The notes under the pieces: generated by a model
The model's database searches: none
The model's input: only the letters and a program-made list of their open reading frames with translations
What the model was told of the DNA's origin: nothing
NCBI GenBank assembly: GCA_022376925.1
Contig: JAIOJX010000001.1
Coordinates: 992,001-1,056,000, forward strand
DNA: 64,000 bases
Origin: Tragulus kanchil
Taxonomy: Eukaryota; Chordata; Mammalia; Artiodactyla; Tragulidae
Direction: 5' to 3'
Translations under genes and position numbers: made by a program
Shown here: positions 2,811-61,244 of the stretch, piece after piece
How positions within the stretch are numbered: position 1 is the stretch's first letter
How the letters are laid out: each line of letters opens with the position of its first letter

Positions 2811-5049
2811 CAAGATACGAGAGGCAGGATTTTAAACCAGGCTTCTGGAACAAGTGGCTGGCTTCCTCCTGTGGGGGAAGCAGCCCGCCTGCAAGATTAG
2901 CTGCAGCCCCTTGATCCTCGTGACTGGCTTTGGGAGGTAGAGAAGGACAGATAGAAGCACTTCCCCGTGGGCATTGCTCACTGCTCCCAGACGCACTGCT
3001 CCATGACCTGCGTAAGGGCAATGCAGGTGAGCACTCGAGAAACGATGAAAGCATTTCTCCTTCACGAGTGACTAGAACAACACAGACTCGAACGAGACAA
3101 ACAGTGATGTCAAAACAGCGACGAGTGCTACTTCGGCTACCCTGCTGACAGGATGTGGGGACCCCCTTCCCCGGGGGCCGGTCAGGCAGGCTGGCTACGC
3201 ACAGAGGGAGCGTGCCAGCCTCCTCACCTGGAGACCGCGGCAGTGGCGGGGCACCTGCTGCAGCGGCTGCAGGCTGCGGGGCAGCGAGGGGCGGCACCTC
3301 TGGACCCGTGGACGCCTCTTCACCCGGAACACGTTCTGTAGCACGTTGGTGTGGAAAAGCCAGTCCAGCGTGACCCAATAAAGGAGAAGCAGCTGCTGTA
3401 CATGCCCTACTGCCATTTGGATGGGTGTGGCTGCCTATTGGCGTGTTTCCCTGTGAGAGAGAGGGGATGCTGCTGTGCAGTCGGCCCCGGGTGGGTGCAG
3501 CCGGGGGCTGCCTGCGGGGGGCTGGCCGCACACGGTGTGAGGGCAGACTCCTCGCTTCTGGCCGTGCGCGCTTACTGGGTGGCGCAGACAGCAGGAACGG
3601 GTCCCCTGCCAGTGGTGGGGCCGGCAGCTGGAGGGCCAGGCGTGGGCAGGCTCTGTTCCTCCGGAGGGCCGTGAGGCAGGGGGTGCTCCCGGCCTGTTTC
3701 CCGGGCCCTGTGTCTTCACGTCGCCTTTCCCCCGCGCGCGTCTGTCTCCCGGTGTCCCCCGTTTGTGAGGCACCAGTCGCCTTGGGTTAGGGCCACCCTC
3801 GCGGCGTCCCTTTAACTCGATCGAGCACCCCTGGAAAGACCCAGTCTCCCATGCTGGTGGCCTCCTCGGCCTGTGGGTGGGGACGGCCCGGGGTCTGGTC
3901 CTGGAGGGGACACATTCCAAGGGCCTGCGCTGCCCTGGGGCAAGATACGAGAGGCAGGATTTTAAACCAGGCTTCTGGAACAAGTGGCTGGCTTCCTCCT
4001 GTGGGGGAAGCAGCCCGCCTGCAAGATTAGCTGCAGCCCCTTGATCCTCGTGACTGGCTTTGGGAGGTAGAGAAGGACAGATAGAAGCACTTCCCCGTGG
4101 GCATTGCTCACTGCTCCCAGACGCACTGCTCCATGACCTGCGTAAGGGCAATGCAGGTGAGCACTCGAGAAACGATGAAAGCATTTCTCCTTCACGAGTG
4201 ACTAGAACAACACAGACTCGAACGAGACAAACAGTGATGTCAAAACAGCGACGAGTGCTACTTCGGCTACCCTGCTGACAGGATGTGGGGACCCCCTTCC
4301 CCGGGGGCCGGTCAGGCAGGCTGGCTACGCACAGAGGGAGCGTGCCAGCCTCCTCACCTGGAGACCGCGGCAGTGGCGGGGCACCTGCTGCAGCGGCTGC
4401 AGGCTGCGGGGCAGCGAGGGGCGGCACCTCTGGACCCGTGGACGCCTCTTCACCCGGAACACGTTCTGTAGCACGTTGGTGTGGAAAAGCCAGTCCAGCG
4501 TGACCCAATAAAGGAGAAGCAGCTGCTGTACATGCCCTACTGCCATTTGGATGGGTGTGGCTGCCTATTGGCGTGTTTCCCTGTGAGAGAGAGGGGATGC
4601 TGCTGTGCAGTCGGCCCCGGGTGGGTGCAGCCGGGGGCTGCCTGCGGGGGGCTGGCCGCACACGGTGTGAGGGCAGACTCCTCGCTTCTGGCCGTGCGCG
4701 CTTACTGGGTGGCGCAGACAGCAGGAACGGGTCCCCTGCCAGTGGTGGGGCCGGCAGCTGGAGGGCCAGGCGTGGGCAGGCTCTGTTCCTCCGGAGGGCC
4801 GTGAGGCAGGGGGTGCTCCCGGCCTGTTTCCCGGGCCCTGTGTCTTCACGTCGCCTTTCCCCCGCGCGCGTCTGTCTCCCGGTGTCCCCCGTTTGTGAGG
4901 CACCAGTCGCCTTGGGTTAGGGCCACCCTCGCGGCGTCCCTTTAACTCGATCGAGCACCCCTGGAAAGACCCAGTCTCCCATGCTGGTGGCCTCCTCGGC
5001 CTGTGGGTGGGGACGGCCCGGGGTCTGGTCCTGGAGGGGACACATTCCA
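2811..5049. repeat. Direct tandem duplication 1 (period 1130 bp)
   Basis: Copy A is 2811-3919 and copy B is 3941-5049. They appear identical wherever I compared them. The 21-bp piece 3920-3940 between them does not occur at the end of copy B, where the sequence continues 'gcctataatg'. The content is GC-rich non-repetitive DNA with no recognised gene. It is probably an assembly duplication, one of 18 in the window with nearly the same period. Confidence 0.95.
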
Positions 5050-5077
5050 GCCTATAATGTGTGAGGCGCCTAGCTCT

Positions 5078-5367
5078 GTTTTTTTTTTTTTTTTAAAAAC
5101 CAGTGTACATTTTGATGTATTTGTTCTCGGCTGTGCTGGGTCTTTGTTGCTGCGAGGGCTTTCTCTAGTTGTGCTGAGCGGGGCTTTTCTCTGGTTGTGG
5201 TGTGCGGGCTTCTCGTTGCAGTGCCTTCTCTTGTGGGGCGCAGGCTCTAGGTGGCCAGGCTCAGTAGCCGCTCCTCAGCATGTGGGGTCTTCCTGGACCA
5301 GGGGTTGAACCCATGTTCCCTGCATGGGCGGGCGGCTTCTTCACCACTGGGCCACCAGGCACGTCCC
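5078..5367 (-). repeat. tRNA-derived SINE (CHR type), minus orientation
   Basis: Poly(T) at the left marks the reversed A-rich tail. The right end reads as the reverse complement of the tRNA-like head ('...ccactgggccaccaggcacgtcccc'), including the box-B-like 'gggttgaacccatgttccc'. The body has the Gly/Ala-rich 'gagcc...ctctag' monomers typical of cetartiodactyl CHR SINEs. Confidence 0.85.
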
Positions 5368-59146: not shown

Positions 59147-61234
59147 GGGCAGGGTGTGGGCCAGCCTGAGTGTGCCTGGTGGGCGGCCCCAGACCCCGAC
59201 GGTAACGGCATCAGGTCACCGCGCCACCCCCCAACTCGTGGGCAGGAGTGTGGGACACCCACGGAGGCCCCACCACGCACCTTTCCACTGGTCTAGGGCC
59301 GGGGACGACACATGCACACCCACACAACGGACTTGCACACTTGATAGCTTGAAGCTTCTGTTTTGCCTATGAAAATTAGATCTATAAATTCACACTCCTT
59401 GGCTGGGGCAGAGGTATAAGAGAGTTGAGGATGGGGTGTGGTGAGGAGAGGGGCATCGGGGTGTTTCTCTTAGAAATATACAAGCAGAAATCTCAAGTTT
59501 TTATAAAATGTGCAAAATACAAGCCTCGTTTGCTCACAGGCACAACTCACACCTGGTATTCACCTTTGCTAAAAGAGAGAGACCTATGCCCTGTGTGCGC
59601 TGGTACACAAGCTCACACAATTGGCTCAGGAACCGAGGGCCCGCTGCTGCCTGGCTCTCTAAGCTTCTGGGAGAGGGGTCTAGCCCAGCGGAAGTATTTG
59701 CCTGGTTCTACTGTCCCCGCTCACCTTCCCCTGCACTCTCTGGCCCTGTTCTCCAAGCGGCCACTTTTGCCTCGGGTGGGGGCCACCCAAAGGTATGGGG
59801 GGCAGAGCCTAGAGAGGCAGGCGAGGCGGCGTGGGGCCAGGTGAGACTCGGCTAGCGGGTACTCGAGGGCAGGCGGCAGGGCCTGGGAAGCAGCGTGTGC
59901 ACCAGCTGGGTTAAGGGGCGGGTAGGGAGGCATCTAGTTTTGGTGGGTTGTGGTATTTTTGGCATTTTATTAAAATGGAAAAAGTTAGTTATAAGCACTC
60001 TGGTGCTTCCTCCCTCCCCACCCCAGACAGACCCCTTGTCAGGAAAGGCCAGTCCCTGGAGGGCTGGGAGGCTAAAGCCCTGGAGGGCTGCGGAGCCGGT
60101 GCCCGTCACATGACAGACACGCTGAGTGACCCGCCACGGGAGGATGGGAGCCGTGGAAAGTGCATCCGCCTTCTGGCGCTCCCAGGCCGGAGCCCCGCCC
60201 AAGCCGGTGCCCACCTCAGGCCCCTGCAGCGGTGGGGCCCAGCCCAGAGGGCAGGGTGTGGGCCAGCCTGAGTGTGCCTGGTGGGCGGCCCCAGACCCCG
60301 ACGGTAACGGCATCAGGTCACCGCGCCACCCCCCAACTCGTGGGCAGGAGTGTGGGACACCCACGGAGGCCCCCACCACGCACCTTTCCACTGGTCTAGG
60401 GCCGGGGACGACACATGCACACCCACACAACGGACTTGCACACTTGATAGCTTGAAGCTTCTGTTTTGCCTATGAAAATTAGATCTATAAATTCACACTC
60501 CTTGGCTGGGGCAGAGGTATAAGAGAGTTGAGGATGGGGTGTGGTGAGGAGAGGGGCATCGGGGTGTTTCTCTTAGAAATATACAAGCAGAAATCTCAAG
60601 TTTTTATAAAATGTGCAAAATACAAGCCTCGTTTGCTCACAGGCACAACTCACACCTGGTATTCACCTTTGCTAAGAGAGAGAGACCTATGCCCTGTGTG
60701 CGCTGGTACACAAGCTCACACAATTGGCTCAGGAACCGAGGGCCCGCTGCTGCCTGGCTCTCTAAGCTTCTGGGAGAGGGGTCTAGCCCAGCGGAAGTAT
60801 TTGCCTGGTTCTACTGTCCCCGCTCACCTTCCCCTGCACTCTCTGGCCCTGTTCTCCAAGCGGCCACTTTTGCCTCGGGTGGGGGCCACCCAAAGGTATG
60901 GGGGGCAGAGCCTAGAGAGGCAGGCGAGGCGGCGTGGGGCCAGGTGAGACTCGGCTAGCGGGTACTCGAGGGCAGGCGGCAGGGCCTGGGAAGCAGCGTG
61001 CACCAGCTGGGTTAAGGGGCGGGTAGGGAGGCATCTAGTTTTGGTGGGTTGTGGTATTTTTGGCATTTTATTAAAAATGGAAAAAAGTTAGTTATAAGAA
61101 CTCTGGTGGTTCCTCCCTCCCCACCCCAGACAGACCCCTTGTCAGGAAAGGCCAGTCCGCTGGAGGGCTGGGAGGCTAAAGCAGGGGCTGCTATGGCTAC
61201 AAGAGGGTGAGCTGGTGCGGAGAGCCGGTGCCCG
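58850..61234 (-). other. SLC6A8: 3' UTR of the SLC6A8-like gene (length inflated by duplication)
   Basis: The region lies directly after the stop codon at 61235-61237. Tandem duplication 18 repeats most of it. Collapsing the duplication leaves about 1.26 kb between the stop codon and the AATAAA at 58865-58870. A nearer AATAAA on the reverse strand at 61067-61072 (repeated at 59966-59971) could give a short UTR of about 0.17 kb. GC-rich open frames on either strand here are not coding. Confidence 0.65.
58865..58870 (-). promoter_or_regulatory. SLC6A8: Candidate poly(A) signal AATAAA for the SLC6A8-like gene
   Basis: The reverse strand reads 'catagcAATAAAcgtcattt'. It is correctly oriented and about 1.26 kb past the stop after collapsing the duplication. 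The copy at 57773-57778 belongs to the duplicated unit. Confidence 0.6.
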
Positions 61235-61244
61235 TCACATGACA
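59009..61244. repeat. Direct tandem duplication 18 (period 1102 bp at left, 1129 at right)
   Basis: Copy A is 59009-60110 and copy B is 60111-61244, joined through the shared 5-mer TGACA. Copy A has about 27 bp missing just before the junction ('aaagccctggagggctgcgg' against a longer copy B stretch), plus homopolymer and base differences near 59.97-60.01 kb. Copy A ends with a decoy of the SLC6A8 stop-codon context at 60106-60108 with no exon attached. Confidence 0.95.

Follow-up and report, generated by a model that had tools for sequence, protein, structure and literature searches.

Regular 1.1-kb tandem pairs in a 64-kb ruminant contig window probably represent unmerged nodes of a long-read assembly

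The window analysed here, by which we mean the whole stretch of 64,000 bp, contains 18 long direct tandem pairs on the plus strand (self-BLAST), and these are almost certainly assembly artefacts of some kind. We consider it probable that they are failed joints between consensus units that have one fixed-length node in common, in a long-read assembly made by a program of the wtdbg/wtdbg2 type. A first-pass annotation had put forward unmerged assembly overlaps as the cause; that proposal is supported, being right in kind and in agreement with those internal tests that were feasible. The overlapping pieces are, however, probably consecutive consensus units (graph edges) rather than whole contigs.

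Dimensions and content of the pairs

Self-BLAST rows were kept if they had at least 90% identity and an offset of less than 6 kb. All 18 duplications listed in the first-pass annotation were present, with second copies beginning no more than 26 bp from where it had placed them. The period of 1.08-1.14 kb that it claimed was borne out: measured by copy starts, the offset ranges from 1076 to 1141 bp (mean 1103, SD 18), and measured by copy ends it averages 1105 bp (SD 17). The clean shared block is 1048-1141 bp long (mean 1085 bp). What separates the copies at the 18 joints ranges from a spacer of 51 bp to an overlap of 11 bp. Identity between copies is 98.9-100% in 17 of the 18 pairs and 96.6% in the pair at 21932-24131. 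With thresholds of 800 bp and 95% identity and no limit on distance, self-BLAST again returned 18 direct repeats, all of them these pairs. Five shorter direct repeats reached at least 95% identity, and there were no inverted repeats at that identity at any distance in the window; inverted rows below 95% identity numbered 60, with each repeat possibly counted twice. The pairs are invisible to Tandem Repeats Finder because, as run, it considered periods of at most 500 bp.

Numbered along the window, pair 1 occupies 2809-5049 (copies 2809-3919 and 3939-5049; self-BLAST identity 100%), pair 2 occupies 7115-9306 (copies 7115-8215 and 8205-9306; 99.9%) and pair 3 occupies 10817-12983 (copies 10817-11898 and 11893-12983; 98.9%). 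Further along are pair 9 at 28025-30164 (copies 28025-29072 and 29118-30164; 99.9%), pair 10 at 30124-32403 (copies 30124-31264 and 31265-32403; 99.7%), pair 13 at 37585-39728 (copies 37585-38643 and 38671-39728; 99.8%) and pair 14 at 41029-43287 (copies 41029-42160 and 42153-43287; 99.6%). The other pairs are located below, where their joints are discussed. Four short additional plus-strand rows at an offset of 2.2 kb result from the overlap of neighbouring pairs. The stretches 22653-23017, 24470-24804, 31152-31264 and 57914-58054 each have a third copy about 2.2 kb downstream, since the shared blocks of two adjoining pairs overlap at these places.

The content of the blocks is as unrelated as had been claimed. 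Their GC content runs from 31% to 64%, and the second copies of non-neighbouring pairs, compared without repeat masking, have in common only stretches of up to 240 bp at 78-88% identity, which are presumably interspersed repeats. On these grounds we rejected the idea that the blocks share a mobile element. One repeat motif is found six times, which amounts to three sites that are each present in both copies (pairs 7, 9, and 13); we take it to be a ruminant repeat, in keeping with a ruminant source of the DNA. The offsets of the 18 pairs total 19,861 bp of the 64,000 bp, leaving about 44.1 kb, and the earlier estimate of about 20 kb of false sequence is matched by these summed offsets (19.9 kb).

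Joints, spacers and differences between copies

If two independently computed pieces had a block in common, the first would be expected to overrun its right edge slightly and end in the true flank on that side, and the second would be expected to begin slightly upstream, in the true left flank; both of these ends would be of poor quality. Spacers of at least 10 bp are present at 12 of the 18 joints, and these form the test set, the spacers at the other six being too small. In 8 of the 12, the joint's own flanks were the best match among the flanks of all 18 joints; in two more they ranked second (one a tie, the other far better matched by the flank of another joint), while in the last two they ranked 9th and 14th. 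None of 20,000 permutations equalled the summed spacer-flank score. Compared with about 400 random pairs of 80-mers, six of the 12 spacers were never matched as well, and three more were matched as well in 1-2.5% of draws.

Several joints illustrate the pattern. In pair 5 (15545-17754; copies 15545-16637 and 16661-17754; 99.8%), the spacer at 16638-16660 repeats the left flank at 15500-15522 in 23 of 23 columns. In pair 8 (25580-27747; copies 25580-26646 and 26679-27747; 99.8%), the left flank at 25538-25556 is found inside the spacer at 26647-26678, matching in 19 of 19 columns. The right flank is the source of similarity in pair 7 (23740-25914; copies 23740-24804 and 24852-25914; 99.7%), where the spacer at 24805-24851 resembles 25946-25989 in 41 of 44 columns, and in pair 18 (59006-61182; copies 59006-60078 and 60108-61182; 99.1%), where the spacer at 60079-60107 resembles 61209-61236 in 24 of 29 columns. 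Similarly, the spacer of pair 11 (32291-34480; copies 32291-33372 and 33399-34480; 99.8%) is like the right flank at 34536-34553, and the spacer of pair 17 (56980-59146; copies 56980-58054 and 58074-59146; 99.8%) starts with the left flank at 56947-56957. Against the random 80-mer pairs, flank matches were at chance level for three spacers: 14507-14540 in pair 4 (13456-15590; copies 13456-14506 and 14541-15590; 99.9%) and 35516-35525 in pair 12 (34446-36596; copies 34446-35515 and 35526-36596; 99.8%), both unlike either flank, and 46052-46102 in pair 15 (44988-47164; copies 44988-46051 and 46103-47164; 99.6%).

The matched flank pieces often lie 20-75 bp away from the block, with some of the bases in between missing, as would be seen if the ends of the consensus were thinly covered. 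In most testable joints the spacers tend to carry frayed overshoot of the true flank, in the manner of ragged unit ends, and we see no reason for a real tandem duplication to carry such pieces.

Differences between the copies are also unevenly placed. The middles of the copies differ at 12 positions in 13,227 bases, compared with 61 in 6,300 bases at the ends, and a reading of the two copies as haplotypes was rejected because the differences are concentrated at the ends instead of being spread along the copies. In the last 200 bp, bases are missing at 20 places in copy 1 vs. 2 in copy 2; in the first 150 bp, they are missing at 13 places in copy 2 vs. 7 in copy 1. Beside these counts, substitutions number 10 and 9. 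Half of the 20 tail losses come from pair 6 (21932-24131; copies 21932-23017 and 23020-24131; 96.6%), in which 27 bases are absent from copy 1, at 10 places in its tail, and the tail count for the remaining pairs is 10 vs. 1. Many of the head differences fall within the first 16 bases, an alignment fringe where the alignment itself is uncertain. Missing bases predominate at the tail of the pieces. Errors are thus concentrated where copy 1 ends and copy 2 begins, so that the quality of each piece is low on its joint-facing side.

Origin of the duplicated blocks

In wtdbg2, bins are 256 bp and an overlap of one bin is allowed between adjacent nodes; consensus is computed unit by unit along the layout, after which the common node is merged. 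The contig would accordingly be a series of consensus units strung together, each computed on its own for one assembly-graph edge, and adjacent units would have one fixed-length node of about 1 kb in common. Where the step that aligns and merges the common node failed, the units would have been set end to end, and each common node would have been written twice in tandem. A common node of fixed length would explain the constant length of the blocks, the irregular units of 1.8-6.4 kb, the frayed spacers and the fact that nodes overlap little. From this pattern we infer the program, the type of read and the failure to merge.

True node spacing can be read inside one unit, as the distance from the start of one block to the start of the next (17 values). 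They tend to fall near multiples of 266-267 bp (R 0.72, P 0.0008 for periods of 240-299 bp, the P-value being uncorrected for the three distance series tried). The P-value was 0.003 when periods of 150-700 bp were scanned, 0.001 against exponential spacings, and 0.002 when the five values near 1.0 kb were collapsed to one. Those five values (932-1047) correspond to four bins, and the smallest values, 720 and 728, to about three. Setting the phase to zero gave 262 bp as the best period (P 0.0065 in a narrow scan and 0.05 in a broad one), with a second peak at about 350 bp. The grid was weak and non-significant in unit lengths (P 0.09) and in gaps (P 0.14), two series that include the ragged ends. 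A 256-bp-type grid in the node distances is supporting rather than decisive evidence. Overlap between adjacent nodes was seen in 7 of 17 cases. The two largest overlaps, of 392 and 335 bp, would be one bin plus overshoot, and the other five are of 35-141 bp, so that overlap is limited to about one bin.

Node length, together with the approximate 256-bp grid, points to a fuzzy Bruijn graph of the wtdbg/wtdbg2 type with 1024-bp nodes. The likeness extends to the block of about 1024 bp, the ragged ends and the small amount of node overlap. Nanopore-type reads tend to lose bases, and the bins of 262-267 bp (vs. 256) and the bias toward missing bases suggest reads of this type. The clean blocks are 2-11% longer than the 1024 bp of wtdbg2, which would reflect net base loss in the reads plus some overshoot. 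Excerpts of published work describe wtdbg2 as cutting reads into 1024-bp segments that become the vertices of the graph (PMC10989838; likewise PMC10965588), and yaks, which are bovids, are reported in an excerpt to have been assembled with wtdbg2 from Nanopore reads (PMC9448747).

Several of the observations above count against the wtdbg2-type reading: the two distance series in which the grid is non-significant, the second peak at about 350 bp, the three chance-level spacers, the spacer better matched by another joint's flank, the bases missing next to the blocks and the uncertain alignment of many head differences. The rate of failure is a further one. Overlaps of this kind are usually merged in wtdbg/wtdbg2 assemblies, whereas here 18 are unmerged in 64 kb. 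This number of joints would mean that most joints in the stretch failed, and ordinary wtdbg2 output is far better than that. At the level of titles and the starts of abstracts, most of the papers being unopened, a literature search yielded no description of unmerged-node duplication among the papers listed, and the excerpts of two studies that used wtdbg2 describe no such duplication (PMC8228171; PMC8290290). False duplications in vertebrate assemblies, as presented in excerpts of PMC9516828 and PMC2864568, are similar in that the copies are absent from the animal. Those in the PMC2864568 excerpt involve divergent haplotypes, whereas the present copies share a single length and hardly differ in their middle parts.

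Other origins must be weighed against failed joints between graph edges. The ends of separate contigs could have been abutted unmerged during scaffolding or gap closing, in the output of a different assembler, much as the first-pass annotation had suggested in broad terms, and this would produce identical geometry at the joints: a common block, ragged ends and two near-identical copies. Under such a process, however, the length of overlap should vary widely, and the observed SD is 18 bp on a mean of 1103 bp. Pieces of 1.8-6.4 kb with overlapping neighbours also suit graph edges better than contigs. Scaffolders usually put N between contigs, and the window contains zero N. We therefore regard this origin as unlikely. 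Computation of the consensus, or polishing, in fixed chunks that overlapped by about 1 kb and were then not stitched together would likewise make overlaps of one length and leave the chunk ends ragged, as observed. Joints between such chunks should be evenly spaced, and the observed joint spacing, or unit length, is irregular, from 1,810 to 6,370 bp; the explanation was rejected for this reason and is in our view very improbable.

Real tandem duplication, by an unknown process with a fixed unit of 1.1 kb, has nothing in its favour beyond the pairs themselves. The blocks have no sequence in common, their size is constant, pieces of the outer flanks are repeated in the spacers, and the differences gather at the joint-facing ends, all of which count against it and leave it with hardly any credibility.

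An interrupted olfactory-receptor gene and consequences for users

One of the joints can also be seen to break a gene. The joint of pair 16 (50620-52868; copies 50620-51746 and 51742-52868; 99.6%) lies within an olfactory-receptor gene (PF13853). On the plus strand, an olfactory-receptor frame at 52210-53415 is unbroken in copy 2 and beyond; GTG is its listed start, and the true start may differ. Copy 2 and the sequence downstream of it encode a full receptor, covering positions 1-277 of the 280 in the PF13853 profile (E 7e-44). Copy 1 has a fragment of this gene at 51090-51701 on the plus strand, which covers only profile positions 1-76 (E 4e-8). It is frame-shifted by the absence of two bases before the joint, one of them within the MAYDR motif, which we take to be a conserved olfactory-receptor motif, and the joint then cuts the fragment off. 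The contrast between the disrupted copy 1 and the complete copy 2 of this gene counts in favour of an assembly artefact.

The duplications have no biological meaning, but they do concern those who work with the assembly. About 31% of the window is false (19.9 of 64 kb), the olfactory-receptor gene is split and partly doubled by a joint, and scans for tandem duplication or copy number would be misled. The combination of a period of about 1.1 kb, overshoot spacers and joint-facing errors provides a signature for which any long-read assembly can be screened. It is possible, albeit doubtful, that the fault is general and that the whole deposited ruminant assembly, or many of its contigs, contain unmerged node overlaps. 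In that event, as much as about 45% would be added to the length of the assembly (in this window, 19.9 kb added to 44.1 kb) and exons would be broken or doubled genome-wide.

At the right end of the window, frames of the sodium:neurotransmitter symporter family (PF00209) lie on the minus strand at 61238-63870, with none of the 18 duplications inside them. For the minus-strand frames at 61.9-62.6 and 63.5-63.9 kb, the best match among solved structures is creatine transporter 1 (E 2e-59 and 3.5e-40).
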